Positions 2,670 through 33,559 of a stretch of DNA of 34,670 bases are shown here, in pieces. Under the pieces are notes generated by a model. The model ran no database searches. It saw only the letters and a program-made list of their open reading frames with translations, and had not been told where the DNA came from. The stretch is from Frankia nepalensis (lineage in GTDB: Bacteria; Actinomycetota; Actinomycetes; Frankiales; Frankiaceae): positions 10,581 to 45,250 of the forward strand of contig NZ_JADWYU010000095.1 of the NCBI RefSeq assembly GCF_016786325.1, written 5' to 3'. The number at the start of each line of letters is the position of its first letter. Position 1 is the stretch's first letter. Position numbers and translations under genes: made by a program.

Positions 2670-5600
2670 TCAGCGGCCGATCAGGGCCGCGACGGCGGCG
2701 GCCGTCGTCGGGAAGCGGTCCAGCAGAGCCGTGGCCTCGCTGTCGGGCCCGGCGACGTTGTCGGACCCGGCTACCGGGTCCGCCTGATCCGCCCGGCCCG
2801 CGCCGGTCGACGAAGGCCACTCGGTCTCCAGATCTAGCAGGGCCGCCAAGGCGTCGGTGGTGGCCGGATGGCCGACGAGCAGATCCGTCAGCGGCCCCGC
2901 GACCACCGGGCGCGCGGCGGCCCACGCGCCGCCAGGTCCAGTCGCCGCCTGGCCCGGCGGCGCGGCCGGGGCCGACCACGGCGCGGTCCAGGCGTCCAGG
3001 TCGGCGAGGCCGGCGGGGAACGTGCGCCCCGCCTCCCGGACCAGCGTGGGCACGTGCTCGGCGGCGTGGTCCCGCAGGGTCCGGATCAGCGTGGGCAGCC
3101 ACGGGAGCAGGACGTGGTCGGGCAGCCGGGCGAACGCCTTGGAGATCACCTCGACGACGAACGGCGCGAGCGTCGGCACGGGCTCCAGGGCCTGCACGAA
3201 GCCGGCGAGGTAGCGCGGGAACGCGGGGATGACCAGCGGGTTGGCGAGCAGCCCGTCGCAGCGCGCCCGCAGCTCGGCCATCGACAGCTGGCCGAGCCGA
3301 GTCTGCGCGGCCCACAGCAGCGCCGTCCGCGCCGGCTCCTCCGGATGGGACTGGCGCACCGCCAGCTCCAGCTGCGCGCGGTCGCAGCCGAGGGCGAGCG
3401 CCAGGTTCTCCAGCGTCAGCAGGAAGCCGAGCATGGAGGCGACCTGGCGCACCGTGGTGTCCTCGGCCGCGAAGGCGATCGGCAGCAGCGTGCAGTAGTG
3501 CGCGTAACCACGCGTGACGAACTGCTCGCACCAGGCCGGCAGCGTGGGCTCACTGACGCGGTAGTGGTCGAGCAGCCGCCGGATCCGGCGCAGCACCTCG
3601 GGCGCGTCGTCCACGGTCCGCTCGCTGGTCAGCAGCTCGACGGCGCGGGCTCCGAGCTCGTCCGCCAGGCGCCGGCTGTCGAGGAAGGTGACGGCGTCCT
3701 CGACGGCGGCGAGCGCGCCGGCCGCCGTCGCGTCCGGCGCCCAGGCGGCGCGGCGCAGTCGCTGCTCCAGGGCCTGCTCGACGGTGACCGCCTCGTAGCC
3801 CAGCTCGATGAGCACGCGCTGATGCCGGCCGATCGCCAGGTCCCAGCTTTCCTGGGGTGACCGCTCCCCCAGCCGCCGTACGCCGAGGATCGGGCGGACC
3901 GCGCCGTCCGGCAGCAGGTAGCGCAGCATCCACAGCAGGTGTGAGCAGGGCGCCAGCTCGGGGTTCGCGGTCAGGTCGAGCAGCGCCCGCTGCACCGTGC
4001 GCTTGGAGAGGTCGAGCCCCAGCGGCGCCAGCCGGTCGTGGACGTCGCGGGCCAGCGGCGGGAGCGCGTCGTAGCCGACCTGGCCGACCCGGTCGCCGCC
4101 GAGCAGGATCTCGCACAGCCGGCGCACGTCGCGCCGGCCGGGCACCACGTCCTTCTCGATGCAGGTGACCGCGGCGTCCTGGAAGTCGTAGGGCGTCGGG
4201 CGGGCGCGGTTGCGCATGCCGGCCAGCAGGATCGACGACTCGAACACCGCGATGGCGTCCGCCGTGCTGGCGAGGTAGCCGTTGCGGCGCGCCAGCCGGA
4301 CGATGTCGACGCTCCAGCCGAGCAGTTCGTCCTCGTCGATCCCGTCCAGCGCGGGCGGGCTCTCCAGGAAGCCGGACAGCCGCTCGGCGCCCTCGGCCGG
4401 CCGGCTCGTGCCACCAACCGGCCCTGCGCCTGACCGGGTCGCCGCGCGGGACTTCGCGGGCCGCGCGCCCTTGGCGGCGCCACGCTGGCCGGACAGGCGG
4501 AAGGGGGCGACGCCGGTGCGGGCCACCGCCTTCGCCCAGGTGGCCGCCGCGATCGACACGGAGCCGCCAGCCAGGCCGAACTGCGCCTCGATCGCGGAGT
4601 GGCTCGACGGGATGAGCCCGTACAGCCAGCGGGTTCCCGTCACGGGCGGGATCTCGTGGCCGGCCTCCGCCGCGCCGGGCGCCGGCGGGCCGGGCGCGGC
4701 CGGTTGGACGGCGGCGGACGCGGCCGGGAGGGCGGGCTCGGGGGCGGGAACCGGATCCACGGCGGTGCTGGCGGCGTCCGCGGCCGGCGCGGGTGCGCCG
4801 AACTCGGGAACGCGGCTGACCGCGTGGAAGGCGCCGCACACGTGCAGGCAGTCCGCCGGGTCGACGCCGGAGCTGGCCAGGTGCTCCCGGATCCGGGTCC
4901 ACATGTGCCGCTCGCGGGCCTCGTCCCGGGCATGCCGGCCGTCGTCGTCGGAAGGCCGCAGCCGGCGGAACAGGCTGCCGACGAGCGCCATGGCCTGGCG
5001 ATAGGTGTCATGGTCGGCGCCGGCGAGCGGCTGCTCGACGTACTGGTCCCACCATTCCGACCAGTGCCGGACCCTGCCGTGACGCAGCAGGAACTCCTCC
5101 AGTTCCGCGAACCGGGGCCGCAGGTCGCCGATCTCGACGCCGACCGCGTCGCCGTGCAGCGCCGGCTGGTCGCCGTCGCGCTCCGGGTCGGCGGCGTCCG
5201 CCGGCGCCGGCCCCGCGCCGTCGTCGGTCGAGGGCCCCGCCGCCGGGCGCCGGCGGTTCTCCCACTGGAAGAGGTGGTCGGCCGACCAGTCGACGAGCAC
5301 CAGCTCGACGCCCGGGGTCTCCAGCGCGTAGGCGATGGCCTGGTACTCCGCGGACGCCTCGGTGATCGGGGCGATGACGCTCAGCGGCCCGGACCCGGCC
5401 GGGAAGCCCGTCAGCTCGTGGGCGAACGCCTGCAGGGCCACGGGCAGCGAGCAGTTGCGCAGCTCCCCGAGCAGCGGGCGCAGGTCCTCGCACAGCTCCA
5501 GGTAGATGACCTTGGGCCGCTTCTCCCGCAGCCGCCGGGCCATCGCCAGCGCGGAGGCCGGCGAGTGATGGCAGACCGGGAAGATCTCCAGCCGTTCGTC

Positions 5601-5840
5601 CAGCGCCCAGGCGACGTCGTCGACCAGGCCGGCGAGGATCTCCGCCAGCGTGGCGGAGTCCGCGGCGAAGGCCGCCGCGGCGTCCACCAGCCGCCCCCGC
5701 AGCTGTCCGAACGAGTTGTGGCCCTCCACGGCCGCGGCTCGCGGGTCGGCGAGCCGGGCGTCCCCCGCGTTCACCGCGCCGTTCACAGCGTTCACCGCGT
5801 TCACAGCGGGCTCGTTCACCACGTTCACCACGGGGCTCAC
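2670..5840 (-). CDS. DUF5682-type large protein (YehM-like) of a MoxR/VWA/SWIM operon
   Basis: A 1056-aa protein of unknown biochemical role, last gene of the five-gene operon. The GTG start at 5840 overlaps the ATPase stop as GTGA, indicating translational coupling. The N-terminus is a short Val-Asn repeat stretch (about residues 4-24). The family core starts near residue 85 with the motif FPVCHHSPASA (C90, H91, H92), followed by an acidic YLELCEDL segment and, further on, CGAFHA. Such His/Glu signatures recall the EreA/ChaN/TraB-like superfamily, but that is inference. A Pro/Ala-rich insert separates this part from a long helical C-terminal half. A longer frame running upstream to 7115 is a shadow over the ATPase gene. 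E. coli YehM is the nearest counterpart I know by context. Confidence 0.75.
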   Translation of the reverse strand: MSPVVNVVNEPAVNAVNAVNGAVNAGDARLADPRAAAVEGHNSFGQLRGRLVDAAAAFAADSATLAEILAGLVDDVAWALDERLEIFPVCHHSPASALAMARRLREKRPKVIYLELCEDLRPLLGELRNCSLPVALQAFAHELTGFPAGSGPLSVIAPITEASAEYQAIAYALETPGVELVLVDWSADHLFQWENRRRPAAGPSTDDGAGPAPADAADPERDGDQPALHGDAVGVEIGDLRPRFAELEEFLLRHGRVRHWSEWWDQYVEQPLAGADHDTYRQAMALVGSLFRRLRPSDDDGRHARDEARERHMWTRIREHLASSGVDPADCLHVCGAFHAVSRVPEFGAPAPAADAASTAVDPVPAPEPALPAASAAVQPAAPGPPAPGAAEAGHEIPPVTGTRWLYGLIPSSHSAIEAQFGLAGGSVSIAAATWAKAVARTGVAPFRLSGQRGAAKGARPAKSRAATRSGAGPVGGTSRPAEGAERLSGFLESPPALDGIDEDELLGWSVDIVRLARRNGYLASTADAIAVFESSILLAGMRNRARPTPYDFQDAAVTCIEKDVVPGRRDVRRLCEILLGGDRVGQVGYDALPPLARDVHDRLAPLGLDLSKRTVQRALLDLTANPELAPCSHLLWMLRYLLPDGAVRPILGVRRLGERSPQESWDLAIGRHQRVLIELGYEAVTVEQALEQRLRRAAWAPDATAAGALAAVEDAVTFLDSRRLADELGARAVELLTSERTVDDAPEVLRRIRRLLDHYRVSEPTLPAWCEQFVTRGYAHYCTLLPIAFAAEDTTVRQVASMLGFLLTLENLALALGCDRAQLELAVRQSHPEEPARTALLWAAQTRLGQLSMAELRARCDGLLANPLVIPAFPRYLAGFVQALEPVPTLAPFVVEVISKAFARLPDHVLLPWLPTLIRTLRDHAAEHVPTLVREAGRTFPAGLADLDAWTAPWSAPAAPPGQAATGPGGAWAAARPVVAGPLTDLLVGHPATTDALAALLDLETEWPSSTGAGRADQADPVAGSDNVAGPDSEATALLDRFPTTAAAVAALIGR

Positions 5841-6952
5841 GACAGGGCCGCGATGGCCTGGCGGCCGCCCTCGAGGAAGTCGGGCCACAGGCCGCCGTCG
5901 GACTTGCCGCGCGGCTCGACGACGGTGTGCAGGTACTTGTTGAGGATCGCGAGGTCCTCTGGGCTGCGGCGGGCGAGCGAGCCGACCAGCGAGCCCGCCA
6001 ACGTGCCGGCCCGCAGCACGCGCTCGCCGAAGAACTGGCTGTGCAGGATCGCGTCCTCCAGGACGCCGATCTGCTCGGCGGTCGACAGCGCCGACTCGAG
6101 CTTCTCGTCGTCGCTGGTCGCGGACGCGGCGGCGCCGCGCAGGTCGGCGAAGCTCTGCAGCAGGATGTCGAGCAGCGTCGGTGGGACGTCCAGCTCGATC
6201 TGGTGGCGGCGCAGCAGCTCGGCGGTGCGGAACCGGACGATGTCGGCCTCGCTGCGCTTGTTCGTCACCACCGGGATCCGGACGAAGTTGAACCGCCGCT
6301 TGAGGGCCGAGGACAGGTCGTTGACGCCCCGGTCCCGGCTGTTGGCCGTCGCGATGATCGAGAAGCCGGGCCTGGCGAACACGACGTTGTCGCTGTCGAG
6401 CTCCGGGATCGACACGTACTTCTCGGAGAGGATCGAGATCAGCGCGTCCTGGACGTCGCTGGTCGAGCGGGTCAGCTCCTCGAACCGGCCGATGACGCCG
6501 CGCTCCATCGCCGTCATGATCGGCGAGGGGATCATCGACTCGCGGGACTGCCCCTTGGCGATCACCATCGAGACGTTCCACGAGTACTTGATGTGGTCCT
6601 CGGTCGTGCCCGCGGTGCCCTGGACGACCAGTGTCGAGTCGCGGCTGATCGCGGCGGCGAGCAGCTCGGCGAGCCAGCTCTTGCCCGTGCCGGGGTCGCC
6701 GATCAGCAGCAGGCCCCGGTCCGAGGCCAGGGTGACGATGGCGCGCTCGACCAGGCTGGTGTCGCCGAACCACTTCTGGTCGATCTGGCGGTCCAGCCCG
6801 TCGGACCTCTGGGACCCGAGGACGAACAGGCGGACCATCCGAGGGCTCAGCCGCCAGGAGAACGGCTTCGGCCCGTCGTCGACGGACTCCAGCCAGTCCA
6901 GCTCTTCGGCGTACTTGGCCTCGGCGGGTGCACGCAGCTGCTCGGCGGTCAT
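5837..6952 (-). CDS. MoxR-type AAA+ ATPase (YehL-like)
   Basis: A 371-aa AAA+ ATPase, probably a ring-forming chaperone-like machine that acts with the neighbouring VWA protein. Walker A is GDPGTGKS (85-92). The Walker B region reads IGRFEELTR, with Glu-Glu where Asp-Glu is usual. Sensor 1 is IIATANSRDRG, and ALKRRF supplies the conserved arginines. The C-terminal helical lid is complete. The ATG at 6952 follows GAGGAGAA. It lies 69 bp after the VWA gene and overlaps the DUF5682 gene by 4 bp. MoxR ATPases are typically paired with VWA proteins. The combination with SWIM and DUF5682 proteins points to the YehL subfamily. The substrate is unknown. Confidence 0.88.
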   Translation of the reverse strand: MTAEQLRAPAEAKYAEELDWLESVDDGPKPFSWRLSPRMVRLFVLGSQRSDGLDRQIDQKWFGDTSLVERAIVTLASDRGLLLIGDPGTGKSWLAELLAAAISRDSTLVVQGTAGTTEDHIKYSWNVSMVIAKGQSRESMIPSPIMTAMERGVIGRFEELTRSTSDVQDALISILSEKYVSIPELDSDNVVFARPGFSIIATANSRDRGVNDLSSALKRRFNFVRIPVVTNKRSEADIVRFRTAELLRRHQIELDVPPTLLDILLQSFADLRGAAASATSDDEKLESALSTAEQIGVLEDAILHSQFFGERVLRAGTLAGSLVGSLARRSPEDLAILNKYLHTVVEPRGKSDGGLWPDFLEGGRQAIAALS

Positions 6953-7021
6953 GCGCGGTTCTCCTCAGCGCGGGGGAAGCTCGGGAACGTCGGGAAGGCG
7001 GAAATCTCGGGTGCCGAGGCG

Positions 7022-8446
7022 TCAGGCAACGAAGTTCTTCAGTTCGAGGACGAGCTTGCGAATGTGTCCGGAGATGACCGGCGTGCCCAGGTCCTTGAAG
7101 CGCTGCCGGAACCACGGGTTCACGCTCTGGTGGCCGGAACTGTTCACGGAACCGACCGGGATGAACTTCACGCCCGACCGGTGAACAGCCTCGATGCCGT
7201 CGAACAGCGGTTGGGAGCGGTCGAACTCATAGAAGTCCGAGATCCACACCATGACGGTGTTACGTGGATCGGTGATCTTCGGCCGGGCCATCGCCATCGC
7301 GACCGGGCCGTCGTTGCCGCCGCCGAGCTTCGTCCGCAGCAGCACCTCGAACGGGTCGTGCACCCAGGGGGTGAGGTCGAGGGCCTTGGTGTCGTAGGCG
7401 ATCAGATGTACGTCGACCTTCGGCAGGCCCGCGAAGATCGACGCCAGGATGGTGCAGTTGACCATCGAGTCGGTCATCGACCCGGACTGGTCGACCACCA
7501 CGATCATCCGCGCGGGGCTGGTACGCCGCGCGGTCTGCCGGTAGTAGAGCCGGTCGACGTAGAGGCGCTGGTCCTTGTCGTTCCAGTTCGGCAGGTTCTT
7601 CCAGATCGTCCGGTCGAGGTCGAGGTTGCGGAACACCCGCTTGGGCGGCACCGAGCGGTCGATCGTGCCCGCGCTCGCCTTCTCCACCTGGGTGCGCAGC
7701 ACCTCGGCGACCTCGTCGACGAACCTGCGGATCAGCGCCTTCGCGTTGGCCAGCGCGACGCCGGAGAGATTGTGCTTGTCACGCAGCAGCTGCTCGATCA
7801 GCGACATGCTCGGGGTGAGCTTGCTGGCCAGTGCGTTGTTCGCCAGCACCTCGCGCAGGTGCATCCGGCGCACGAGGTCGGCCTCGAGGTCGGCGAGCGT
7901 GCCGGAAAGGCCGCCCGCGTCGCCGGCCCCCGGCCCGAGCGCCGCCTTCAGCCAGGCCGCGTCGGACTGCCAGCCGGCGAGCTGGGTGGCGCTGACGCCG
8001 CCAGACCCCGTCGCGAACACGTTGAGCAGCAGTTTGGAGACCAACGCCGCGTTGCGCGCCTCGGCCCGGCCCACCGCGGCGTCGGGCCGCGTGCCGGCGC
8101 CAGGCCCGGCCGCGTCGGGCTCGATCTCGTCGGGCCCGGTCTCGTTGCCCGCGGCCGCCGGCGCGGGCCCGTCGCCAGCCGCCTCCCCACCGGCCAGCAG
8201 GCCAGGCAGCTCCTCGCCGAGCGAGGGGAAGCGCTGCACGATGTTGTCCACGGACACCGTGGGATCCAGCAGCGCGGCGGGCAGGCCGAGATCGTCCACG
8301 ATCGCCAGGCTGGCCGACTCCAGCGCGGCCTGCTCGTCCGCGGCGAAGATCCTCGACAGCAGCCGCCAGTACAGCACCTGGCGACGGTTCTCGTACGCGG
8401 CCGGGTCGACGTCGCCGGCCACCGGCCGGGTCATGTTCTCGGTCAT
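7022..8446 (-). CDS. VWA (von Willebrand A) domain protein, CoxE/YehP-like
   Basis: A 474-aa cytoplasmic protein without signal peptide. The C-terminal third is a VWA domain with an intact MIDAS motif, VVVDQSGSM (DxSxS, near residue 318), expected to bind a divalent metal and a protein partner. The N-terminal part is helical with a Pro/Ala/Gly-rich linker around residues 85-130. VWA proteins of this kind are adaptors for MoxR ATPases. Its ATG overlaps the stop of the 480-aa gene as ATGA, and the ATPase gene follows 69 bp downstream. By order and domains it matches E. coli YehP. No target can be deduced from the sequence. Confidence 0.87.
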   Translation of the reverse strand: MTENMTRPVAGDVDPAAYENRRQVLYWRLLSRIFAADEQAALESASLAIVDDLGLPAALLDPTVSVDNIVQRFPSLGEELPGLLAGGEAAGDGPAPAAAGNETGPDEIEPDAAGPGAGTRPDAAVGRAEARNAALVSKLLLNVFATGSGGVSATQLAGWQSDAAWLKAALGPGAGDAGGLSGTLADLEADLVRRMHLREVLANNALASKLTPSMSLIEQLLRDKHNLSGVALANAKALIRRFVDEVAEVLRTQVEKASAGTIDRSVPPKRVFRNLDLDRTIWKNLPNWNDKDQRLYVDRLYYRQTARRTSPARMIVVVDQSGSMTDSMVNCTILASIFAGLPKVDVHLIAYDTKALDLTPWVHDPFEVLLRTKLGGGNDGPVAMAMARPKITDPRNTVMVWISDFYEFDRSQPLFDGIEAVHRSGVKFIPVGSVNSSGHQSVNPWFRQRFKDLGTPVISGHIRKLVLELKNFVA

Positions 8447-9885
8447 TTCCGCAGCAGCCTTCCGGCCCGCTCGCGCAGCACGGCGACGGAGTCGCCCTGC
8501 TTGGCCAGCACCTTCGCGATCTTGGGATCGGTCACCCCGAGCGCCCAGTCGCCGGCGTGCGCCGTGACCGCCTTGCGCCTGACCACGGCCTGGGCCGCGA
8601 GCGGGCGCAGCCGCCAGGCGCCGTCGTCCCAGCGCAGCAGCCCAAGGCAGGCGGACGAGGCGGCGAGCAGCTCGGCGGTCAGCGGGCCGTGGCTCGCCGC
8701 CGGGTTGTCGGCCGGGCCGACGTCGACGCCGAGTGGGATGCCGCCGAGGTCGAACGCGAGCGCGTGCCCCTCGTCCACGGAGGTCGCGTAACCCTCCAGC
8801 AGCACCGGCTCGGCGATCCGGACGGGGTGGCGGTCCAGCGGCACCGCCGCCGGCGCGGCCGCGCCGGCGAGCAGGACCCGGGCGGTCACGAACGGGTCCG
8901 CCGCCTCACCGAGGCGGACGCCGTCCTCCCGCCACACCAGGTCGCCGCCCGGGAGCAGCGCCAGGTCGGTGACCTCCACCGCGCGCCGCTCGGCGAGCGC
9001 GCCCAGCAGCACGGGGTACGCGTCGAGAAGCCGCCACAGCGCCGGGCCCACGATCGTGTCCACCTTCGCGGCGGTCACGCCGGCGCGCACCAGTGCCGGG
9101 CCTTCGTCCGCCCCGCCGGCGGGCTCGAGGACGCCGTGGACCTGGACCCGGACCGCGGTGTCGTGCTCGGCGACCTCGGCTCCGAGGATCAGCAGCCGTC
9201 CGGACACCCGCTTCGCCGGCTCGGACGGGCCGGGCGGCCACGCTCCCTTCCAGGCGAGCAGCTGCGCGCGGGCCCACAGGTCGGCCCAGCGCCGCGCCGG
9301 CAGCCGGGCCGCGGCACCGACCGGGCAGGAGGCACGCAGCTCGGCGGCCAGGCCGTCGAGGAGCACCGCCAACCGGCGCAGTCCCGGCTCGGCCCGCGCG
9401 GCCTGGCGGGCCTGGGCGGAGGCCGACACCAGCTCGTCGTCGACGCCGCGCCAGCCGGCGATCGCCAGCTCGCGCAGCCAGGACCGGCACCCCGCGAGCG
9501 CGGCCGCCCACCCCGGTGGGGACGCGTTCACCGCCGCCGGCGCCGCCTCGACGGCCGGCCTCGCCCGGCCCGCCGCGGCGTCGAAGCCAGCGAGCAGGGC
9601 GTCGTGCGCCGCCCCGAGCAGCGCGGCGCGCGCGCCGGCCAACGTCACCAGTACCTCGTCGCTCACGGACCCGGCGGCGGCCTTGTCCGCCGCCTCCCGA
9701 GCACGGGCGCCGAGCGGCGTCGCACCCACGGCGGACGCCAGCGCGGCGAGCGCCTCCGCGCCGCCGGCGCCGAGGCGGCCAAGCCCCGCCGCCAGGGCGT
9801 CGTCGAAACCGTCCACCACGGCCAGCGCCGCGTCGACGCCTACCGGCGGGGCGCCGGCGAGCTCGTTCAGCTGGGTCGCGAGCAC
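8443..9885 (-). CDS. Uncharacterised Ala-rich protein of the MoxR/VWA operon
   Basis: A 480-aa protein without signal peptide or membrane segment. The first ~150 residues are Ala-rich and helical; the rest is a mixed alpha/beta region with many Trp, Leu and Val residues. I recognise no catalytic motif. The GTG start at 9885 immediately follows the TAG of the SWIM gene in the same frame, and no better start or strong ribosome site is visible, so its translation must depend on reinitiation or readthrough. It overlaps the VWA gene by 4 bp. It may correspond to the C-terminal part of a single-chain YehQ-like protein; that is inference from position and size. Confidence 0.72.
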   Translation of the reverse strand: MLATQLNELAGAPPVGVDAALAVVDGFDDALAAGLGRLGAGGAEALAALASAVGATPLGARAREAADKAAAGSVSDEVLVTLAGARAALLGAAHDALLAGFDAAAGRARPAVEAAPAAVNASPPGWAAALAGCRSWLRELAIAGWRGVDDELVSASAQARQAARAEPGLRRLAVLLDGLAAELRASCPVGAAARLPARRWADLWARAQLLAWKGAWPPGPSEPAKRVSGRLLILGAEVAEHDTAVRVQVHGVLEPAGGADEGPALVRAGVTAAKVDTIVGPALWRLLDAYPVLLGALAERRAVEVTDLALLPGGDLVWREDGVRLGEAADPFVTARVLLAGAAAPAAVPLDRHPVRIAEPVLLEGYATSVDEGHALAFDLGGIPLGVDVGPADNPAASHGPLTAELLAASSACLGLLRWDDGAWRLRPLAAQAVVRRKAVTAHAGDWALGVTDPKIAKVLAKQGDSVAVLRERAGRLLRK

Positions 9886-32066: not shown

Positions 32067-32806
32067 GCCCGTCGACGTCCGTGCTGCTGGTCGATGACCA
32101 GCCGCTGCTGCGGATGGGTTTTCGGATGGTGCTCGAGTCGCAGCCGGACCTCACGGTGATCGGCGAGGCGGGCGACGGAGCGGACGCCGTCCGGCTCACC
32201 GCGGAACTCGCGCCCGATGTCGTGCTGATGGACGTACGGATGCCCGGGATCGACGGCATCGAGGCGACCAGGCGGATCGCCGCCGCCGGCGGCGCGTCGC
32301 GCGTGCTGATCCTGACGACGTTCGACCTGGACCGGTATGTGCTCGCCGGACTGCGCGCGGGGGCGAGCGGCTTCCTCCTCAAGGACGTGCCACCAGCCGA
32401 CCTGCTCGCCGCGATCCGCACCGTAGCCGCCGGCGACGCGGTCGTCGCCCCGAACGTCACCCGGCGGCTCCTCGACGCGTTCGCGCACCGCCTGCCCGAC
32501 CCCGACGCCTCGGAAGGCGACGCGGCGGGCAGGGGCACCGACGGCCACGGGACCGCCCAGGCCGCGGGCGCCGACCGGCTCGCGCGGCTCACCGACCGGG
32601 AGCGCGACGTCCTCGGCGAGGTCGCGGCCGGGCTGTCCAACGCGGAGATCGCGGCTCGCCTGGTCCTTTCCGAGGCGACCGTGAAGACCCACGTGGGCCG
32701 CATCCTCGCCAAGCTGGAACTCCGCGACCGCGTCCAAGCCGTCGTCTTCGCCTACGAAACCGGGATCGTCCGCCCCTCCGCGAACCCGCCCCGTCACCCG
32801 GACTGA
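32063..32806 (+). CDS. NarL/FixJ-family response regulator
   Basis: A 247-aa partner of the upstream kinase. The receiver has D11-D12, phospho-acceptor D57 in VLMDVRMPG, Thr in ILTTFD and Lys in FLLKDVPP, all intact. A Gly/Asp-rich linker precedes the LuxR-type helix-turn-helix LTDRERDVLGEVAAGLSN ... SEATVKTHVGRILAKL. The ATG at 32063 overlaps the kinase stop as ATGA behind GGAGGAGGGGG. It probably controls the adjacent ABC exporter in response to membrane or antibiotic stress, by analogy with similar clusters; that is inference. Confidence 0.95.
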   Translation: MSPSTSVLLVDDQPLLRMGFRMVLESQPDLTVIGEAGDGADAVRLTAELAPDVVLMDVRMPGIDGIEATRRIAAAGGASRVLILTTFDLDRYVLAGLRAGASGFLLKDVPPADLLAAIRTVAAGDAVVAPNVTRRLLDAFAHRLPDPDASEGDAAGRGTDGHGTAQAAGADRLARLTDRERDVLGEVAAGLSNAEIAARLVLSEATVKTHVGRILAKLELRDRVQAVVFAYETGIVRPSANPPRHPD

Positions 32807-33069: not shown

Positions 33070-33231
33070 TCAGAAGCCCCAGCCCCAGCCACCGCCCCAG
33101 CCCCAGCCGCCACCCCAGCCCCAGCCCCAGCCGCCGCCCCAGCCGCCGAACCCAATGCCAAAGAAGTAGCCGGTGCGCTCACGGAAGGACCCTGAGTCCT
33201 GAAGCGTAGGCGTGTGGTACGTGGCCTTCAT
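33070..33231 (-). CDS. Putative RiPP precursor: lasso-type leader with a Gly/Trp-rich core
   Basis: A 53-aa peptide. The ATG at 33231 has GGAGGA 6 nt upstream, the best ribosome site nearby; in-frame ATGs at 33249 and 33258 lie upstream. Residues 1-21 carry Y5-x2-P8-x-L10-x3-G14-x-F16-x3-T20-G21, the pattern of actinobacterial lasso-peptide leaders recognised by the RRE/PqqD-like protein, with Thr at -2. The predicted core (22-53) is YFFGIGF followed by Gly/Trp repeats with eight Trp and a final Phe. It has no Asp or Glu, so a lasso isopeptide ring cannot form. No cyclase, protease or transporter gene is adjacent. The opposite strand would read as Pro/Gln repeats without such a start. The product and its maturation are unknown. 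Confidence 0.68.
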   Translation of the reverse strand: MKATYHTPTLQDSGSFRERTGYFFGIGFGGWGGGWGWGWGGGWGWGGGWGWGF

Positions 33232-33450
33232 GCCGGTTCCTCCGTCCATTGGTGACATTCACCTGGCCGGTCGGGTTTCTCGGCGGTGAGCGGCTGCTCC
33301 GGTCGAACACCGGTACTGGGCACCAGCCGTTGTCGACACCTGGTCGCCGTCCGAAGCCGACCAATCTCAGCGTGCCACCGGCCGGTTCGCTCAAGGTTCA
33401 GCGCGTTGCGCGACGACAGCAGGGGGAACGACAACCAGGAGAAACGAAAA

Positions 33451-33479
33451 CAGGGGCGTGATCATCGATCACGCCCCTG
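33451..33479 (-). terminator. Intrinsic terminator of tRNA-Pro
   Basis: A perfect 13-bp stem, CAGGGGCGTGATC (33451-33463) with its inverse (33467-33479), closes a 3-nt loop. On the minus strand it is followed by TTTTCGTTTC. It lies 3 bp beyond the CCA end of the tRNA. Confidence 0.92.
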
Positions 33480-33482
33480 CGC

Positions 33483-33559
33483 TGGTCGGGGTGGCGGGAT
33501 TTGAACCCACGGCCTCTTCGTCCCGAACGAAGCGCGCTGCCAAGCTGCGCCACACCCCG
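33483..33559 (-). tRNA. tRNA-Pro, anticodon CGG
   Basis: The minus-strand sequence folds as a full cloverleaf: acceptor CGGGGTG with CACCCCG, anticodon arm CTTCG-TTCGGGA-CGAAG giving anticodon CGG, and T arm GTGGG-TTCAAAT-CCCGC. The discriminator is A, and the 3' CCA is encoded (33485-33483). It reads the CCG proline codon, which is common in such GC-rich genes. Confidence 0.97.

Follow-up and report, generated by a model that had tools for sequence, protein, structure and literature searches.

The minus-strand ORF at 33070-33231 of the window (the whole stretch of DNA analyzed, 34,670 nt) is a genuine coding gene, in which a lasso-type leader precedes a Gly/Trp (GW) core. The core holds no ring acceptor, the genome gave no match to the lasso cyclase of the family, a locus of lasso-type B1, B2 and ABC genes is retained on another contig, and a flavin monooxygenase (FMO) recurs beside GW peptides across differing gene contexts and behind other leaders. 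On balance we lean towards an explanation in which cyclase-free lasso machinery would trim and export linear GW peptides in trans, with the FMO oxidizing their Trp residues. Together these features are a hint of a modified and exported peptide of a kind not yet described.

The precursor gene and its family

The ORF encodes 53 amino acids, reading MKATYHTPTLQDSGSFRERTG in the leader and YFFGIGFGGWGGGWGWGWGGGWGWGGGWGWGF in the rest. The features of this part of the window are as follows.

33070..33231, minus strand: precursor gene, 53 codons plus stop (translation, coding substitution pattern)
33169..33231, minus strand: lasso-type leader, residues 1-21, with Y5, P8, L10, G14, F16 and T20 (PF19397; NF033521 just below its cut-off; alignment)
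33073..33168, minus strand: Gly/Trp core, 32 residues, eight Trp, no Asp/Glu (translation)
33238..33243, minus strand: ribosome-binding site GGAGGA, ending 6 bases 5´ of the ATG (sequence)
33450..33480, minus strand: terminator-like hairpin after tRNA-Pro (pattern match only)
33483-33559: tRNA-Pro

An earlier note on this DNA had recognized a lasso-type leader, and the leader indeed passed Pfam PF19397 (DUF5972; 29.0 bits, cut-off 22.6, E 7.6e-7) and came just under the cut-off of 19 for NCBIfam NF033521 (lasso_leader_L3) with 17.3 bits. PF19397 spans the leader only and names no function, and no paper on DUF5972 was found among open-licence PMC papers. The ribosome site that the note had described was likewise present, as was its 32-residue core with eight Trp and no Asp/Glu, which leaves no ring acceptor. 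We place the presumed start of the core after T20-G21 by analogy with lasso leaders, which carry Thr at the penultimate place (PMC10368454).

On one side of the gene lies a response-regulator/LuxR-type gene ending at 32806 and on the other the tRNA-Pro, with the terminator-like hairpin, a pattern match only, as the separator. No other ORF in the window satisfied our GW rule (at least four Trp and at least 15 Trp plus Gly within 25 residues), a rule chosen after the first loci had been seen. The note's statement that no maturation genes are nearby stood for the window copy, beside which none were found between 32400 and 34000, but not for the sister copy that lies 50 kb off, as the FMO gene begins 114 bp after its end. 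When the window copy was compared with 11 other orphan loci, we detected no informative common neighbours, the two partial matches concerning other genes only.

The precursor is also not an orphan, as the note had supposed, but one of three copies in its genome and of a family-wide set. The two extra copies, 47 and 50 kb away on the same contig, have near-identical leaders and ribosome sites and differing GW cores, with the frame intact in all three; their leaders scored 26.1 and 20.5 bits against NF033521, both above the cut-off. Between the window leader and that of the nearer paralogue (C365:90332) we counted seven synonymous changes in 14.3 sites and two nonsynonymous changes in 45.7 sites, and between it and the other paralogue (C365:93604) seven and five, respectively. 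A search with the leader alignment returned 60 places in 31 of 35 Frankiaceae genomes, Y5, P8, G14, F16 and T20 being invariant in the 22 aligned rows, and mean entropy over 38 distinct GW-type leaders was 0.56 bits at each of the first two codon positions and 1.19 bits at the third. Of the two outcomes that the note had named as refuting, a lack of leader conservation in relatives and a lack of coding constraint on the minus strand, neither was seen, and the precursors almost certainly form a coding family. A chance ORF on a G-rich repeat was rejected on the coding pattern and the recurrence in relatives; weak matches to the leader model in long frames of the same genome were set aside as noise. 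Across 396 genomes of the phylum, with few candidates scored per genome (at most 21), the leader search matched only the genome of the window. We also noted a short GGTC tandem repeat (L020, ~9265-9325) about 280 bp 5´ of the FMO-linked copy in this genome.

Gly/Trp cores and their flavin monooxygenase partner

Of the 60 leader places, 23 have an FMO gene no more than 4 kb downstream and 17 a B2 gene no more than 6 kb downstream; the window copy is among the other 20, seven of which reach contig ends. In 12 of the 17 B2-linked precursors, core position 8 or 9 is Asp (for example GRWGWGRDWLWRSF), and these 12 look like lasso precursors. Removing the 17, two lasso-like cores (G007 and G028) and one match starting at residue 2 left 40 GW-type rows, including those cut by contig ends; one precursor row containing N was excluded. 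These cores, 1482 residues in all, consist of 54% Gly and 25% Trp, with Arg at 3.7%, His at 2.9% and no Lys. Since 37 of the 40 have neither Asp nor Glu, a classical lasso ring or a side-chain lactam is impossible for those 37. GW-type precursors were present in 24 Frankiaceae genomes, all 24 of which also have B2, and copies are undercounted because the repeats fall at contig ends or poly-G errors (drafts L173, L178, L193, L198, L255, L263 and L269). Genera are labeled here as Pseudofrankia (g1, the genus of the window), the Parafrankia group (g2, with one record titled Frankia sp. EI5c) and Frankia (g6). In three Pseudofrankia lasso precursors (L152, L154 and L063) long Gly-rich tails follow a ring-like GRWGWGRD, and two of them end in GGGGGGWGW or GGGGGGW; in these tails GW and lasso cores are alike.

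The note had advised looking for a co-occurring modifying enzyme, and a candidate emerged in the VioD-like FMO beside sister copies, which in this genome has 412 residues. FMO genes were present in 23 of the 35 Frankiaceae genomes and missing from 12; in 18 of the 23, a precursor with the leader lies upstream in the same orientation. As for the remaining FMO genomes, in G003 a GW tail is visible within a broken poly-G run, three FMO contigs (L178, L193 and L198; by coordinates G007, G025 and G027) begin inside or at a GW tail, and no GW sequence was found within 1.5 kb of the FMO of G013. Across ten FMO loci from three genera (Frankia contributing one locus), the FMO was the sole ORF of at least 110 aa common to all; a response-regulator ORF had 34-37% matches in two Parafrankia-group loci. 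Bystander synteny was set aside, as gene contexts differ between loci. GW precursors also occur in FMO-free genomes, such as G030, G032 and G033.

In five of six Pseudofrankia loci (L020, L052, L053, L055 and L069) a perfect 11-14 bp hairpin lies between precursor and FMO, perhaps a partial terminator holding the enzyme low relative to the precursor. A second FMO (L122, G002:C1:4983391-4984416), 40% identical, has no GW ORF within the 4 kb examined.

VioD acts on the indole ring. With a structural model of the FMO (mean pLDDT 89.1), the top four Foldseek matches were VioD (TM by query 0.74-0.77, 26% identity), as were the two best matches among PDB sequences. Against NCBIfam the FMO reached 177.5 bits for NF053547 (VioD; cut-off 620) and 328.6 bits for NF006101 (salicylyl-CoA 5-hydroxylase; cut-off 1078 over a two-part protein), the latter match, which these scores favour over VioD, covering profile positions 1-346 of 768. 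The enzyme therefore resembles VioD and the first domain of salicylyl-CoA 5-hydroxylase in fold and sequence, but it falls below both cut-offs and, unlike either, is paired with a ribosomal peptide. The most parsimonious guess as to its reaction is that it hydroxylates Trp in the GW core, and we hold Trp oxidation by the FMO tentatively, at a little short of an even chance.

Beyond Frankiaceae, we examined the best 80 of 571 confirmed FMO relatives (12 Frankiaceae loci and 68 others). In 48 of these 80 (8 of the 12 and 40 of the 68) a GW ORF in the orientation of the FMO lies no more than 2.6 kb upstream, and in 42 no more than 700 bp, compared with four GW ORFs in 528 kb elsewhere in the same 80 loci, all four being Saccharopolyspora genes beyond an exporter. 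By genus, the best 80 gave upstream GW ORFs in 20 of 21 Nocardia and 10 of 15 Streptomyces loci; the strict rule fitted poorly in Saccharopolyspora, with 1 of 13 upstream and a GW gene on the far side of the exporter in four others, and in Pseudonocardia, with 1 of 9 upstream and Asp-rich variants in three further members under a looser scan. The 32 loci lacking an upstream GW ORF include four Frankiaceae contig breaks in or at the GW tail and the four Saccharopolyspora cases across the exporter, which leaves 24 of the best 80 where the strict rule found no GW ORF, contig break or far-side copy. In the FMO tree, GW and non-GW loci are mixed within clades, and one Saccharopolyspora group consists of second copies without GW ORFs. 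Asp-rich GW variants lie beside an ABC gene and the FMO in Pseudonocardia L245, L246, L249 and L250 (for example MGDHWGGDDHHHGWGGG). Locus L191 also contains a 217-aa ORF with relatives in eight loci of other genera.

Judged by eye, as were all signal peptides, the GW leaders outside Frankiaceae are Sec-like in Nocardia and Streptomyces and of a short M[RKQ]IK type in Saccharopolyspora and Pseudonocardiales, and the GW ORFs of Pseudonocardia have no obvious leader. In some loci outside Frankiaceae an ABC exporter stands between the GW ORF and the FMO. An ABC transporter adjoins the FMO in 19 of the best 80 loci, 59-99% identical to the transporter of L190 or L246, with two further matches of ~31-33% in Nocardia; the two scanned carry PF00664 and PF00005. 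Since GW peptides outside Frankiaceae stand beside the same FMO family without a lasso leader, the leader looks exchangeable, and the functional unit looks like FMO plus GW peptide, with the leader as a replaceable export handle. Given Sec-type export in Nocardia and Streptomyces, the FMO would need to act before export. The parts of the GW system are of known types; among open-licence PMC papers we found no description of a GW-FMO system.

The same loci bear on the best surviving alternative, a secreted peptide that stays unmodified, for instance one that is Trp-rich and acts on membranes, beside an FMO that makes a small molecule and is merely co-regulated. The composition of the cores, the Sec-like signals and ABC exporters, which indicate export, and the best NCBIfam score, that of a small-molecule hydroxylase, are in keeping with this view. 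However, the cores are nearly uncharged, which speaks against an antimicrobial, and the FMO remains beside GW ORFs while other neighbours change, a constancy not easily accounted for unless the substrate is shared. We regard this alternative as unlikely.

Lasso-type machinery without a matched cyclase

The note had suggested that a leader-recognition protein is encoded elsewhere, and a single lasso-type locus with the gene order regulator, B1 (a stand-alone RRE), B2 (a peptidase), ABC was found on contig C354, holding the only B2 match of the genome and not adjoining the window precursor. Its B1 passes NF033530 and its B2 passes NF033537. The family cyclase P0002 had no match at 1e-10 in this genome (G000), nor beside B1/B2, and at the same threshold it was unmatched in G005, six Parafrankia-group genomes, G015 and G018, all of which have B2. 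PF00733 had three matches in the window's genome: one protein passes TIGR03104 (N-acetylglutaminylglutamine amidotransferase), one match is weak, and the third is an asparagine-synthase-like protein on C396 that falls below every NCBIfam cut-off, so that a divergent cyclase may exist. A classical lasso peptide was set aside on the core without Asp/Glu together with the lack of a P0002 match.

In the cyclase-free Parafrankia group, median pN/pS was 0.40 for B1, 0.27 for B2 and 0.21 for ABC; for genomes with the cyclase the corresponding values were 0.23, 0.28 and 0.24 in Frankia and 0.29, 0.35 and 0.33 in Pseudofrankia. By these ratios the Parafrankia-group genes appear to be under much the same constraint as in cyclase-bearing genomes, with B1 more relaxed. 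The single cyclase-free Pseudofrankia pair, G000/G005, gave 0.40, 0.46 and 0.38, all above the medians of its cyclase-bearing congeners, and some mild relaxation is possible there. The B2 motifs GC[LV]PR and AHAW were kept in all 23 proteins compared.

Locus L170 of G018 (4492-8571) is a cyclase-free regulator-A-B1-B2-ABC locus with its precursor in place, which reads GYYGYHRRNYY where the precursor of cyclase-bearing G021 (L264) reads GYYGGHRRDYY, with Asn in place of Asp9; it is a candidate for a lasso cluster turned linear. Acceptor and cyclase are mismatched elsewhere, G015 having Asp in the core without a cyclase, and G029 and one G024 precursor lacking Asp8/9 although a cyclase is present. 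The lasso-type recognition and cleavage genes seem to have been kept, for another product, after the ring-forming enzyme was lost.

Compared with the lasso peptides of Actinobacteria (genes A, C, B1, B2 and D), the window precursor has a like leader motif, YxxPxL...G...T with Thr penultimate, and its genome has the stand-alone RRE B1, the peptidase B2 and the ABC type. It differs in that the core lacks an Asp/Glu acceptor at position 7-9, the genome has no match to the family cyclase (the asparagine-synthetase-like C), and the precursor does not lie beside B1/B2. As two tested defining features of lasso peptides, a matched cyclase and an acceptor, are lacking, we do not class the gene as a lasso peptide. 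The linear polyphosphorylated peptides (LPP) of Bacillota offer a precedent for a lasso-like leader on a non-lasso product (PMC13381572). In LPP the leader is lasso-like and bound by an RRE although the peptide is no lasso, cleavage falls to a SipW-like peptidase, and there is a polyphosphorylated intermediate. The present system departs from LPP in its B2 peptidase of lasso type, its GW core and its FMO.

The missing cyclase and the mild relaxation in G000/G005 could also mark a lasso precursor relic, duplicated, drifted in its core and without a product, given that lasso precursors in this family have the leader as well, some of them with W-rich rings and Gly-rich tails. Against this stand the protein-level constraint on the leader, the preservation of ribosome site and reading frame in all three copies, and the recurrence of GW cores in 24 Frankiaceae genomes and, under other leaders, elsewhere; a relic is accordingly improbable. 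Cyclization or tailoring by some unlinked enzyme could draw on the unassigned C396 protein and would fit the FMO-free genomes with GW precursors, but the 37 cores without Asp/Glu exclude a side-chain lactam for themselves, and we rate this reading as quite improbable. Least credible is an attenuation leader whose Trp codons would sense tryptophan and, by way of the intervening hairpin, regulate the FMO: a short ORF rich in Trp codons does precede a flavin enzyme, with the perfect hairpin in the Pseudofrankia loci, but the window copy and 19 other places lack an FMO within 4 kb downstream (7 of the 20 cut by contig ends), the leader retains amino-acid motifs, Sec-like signals occur in Nocardia and Streptomyces, and in Saccharopolyspora L190 the GW and FMO genes lie on opposite strands.

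Proposed route and significance

In the explanation we favour, with cyclase-free lasso machinery acting on linear GW peptides, the window gene would be one of three precursors of an exported Gly/Trp-repeat peptide, and its lasso-type leader would serve as a handle and would not mark a lasso product. B1, the RRE encoded by itself on the other contig, would bind the leader, and the B2 cysteine peptidase would cleave behind T20-G21; the core would then be exported by the ABC protein that the locus also encodes. No macrolactam would form, as the core lacks an acceptor and the genome has no match to the family cyclase. Such ring-free trimming and export by B1, B2 and ABC is probable. The VioD-like FMO encoded beside the sister copy would oxidize Trp side chains before export, most likely by indole hydroxylation.

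A wider and rather doubtful reading is that of an actinobacterial module in which a GW chain, its indoles hydroxylated in bulk by the VioD-like enzyme, is then exported with an interchangeable leader and export route. That route would be a Sec-like signal in Nocardia and Streptomyces, an ABC exporter in Saccharopolyspora and Pseudonocardia, and the cyclase-free lasso RRE/B2/ABC in part of Frankiaceae. Because what the cores retain is composition and not sequence, the product may be a bulk redox-active or cross-linking surface material and not a sequence-specific antibiotic.

A low-complexity Gly/Trp peptide is tied to one flavoenzyme family across several actinobacterial families while its leader changes, and because this tie persists, the enzyme and its likely substrate are testable with few genes. 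If the Trp residues are oxidized, chains rich in hydroxyindole would be made by a ribosomal route; if the module reading is true, the GW product may be a peptide counterpart of melanin.
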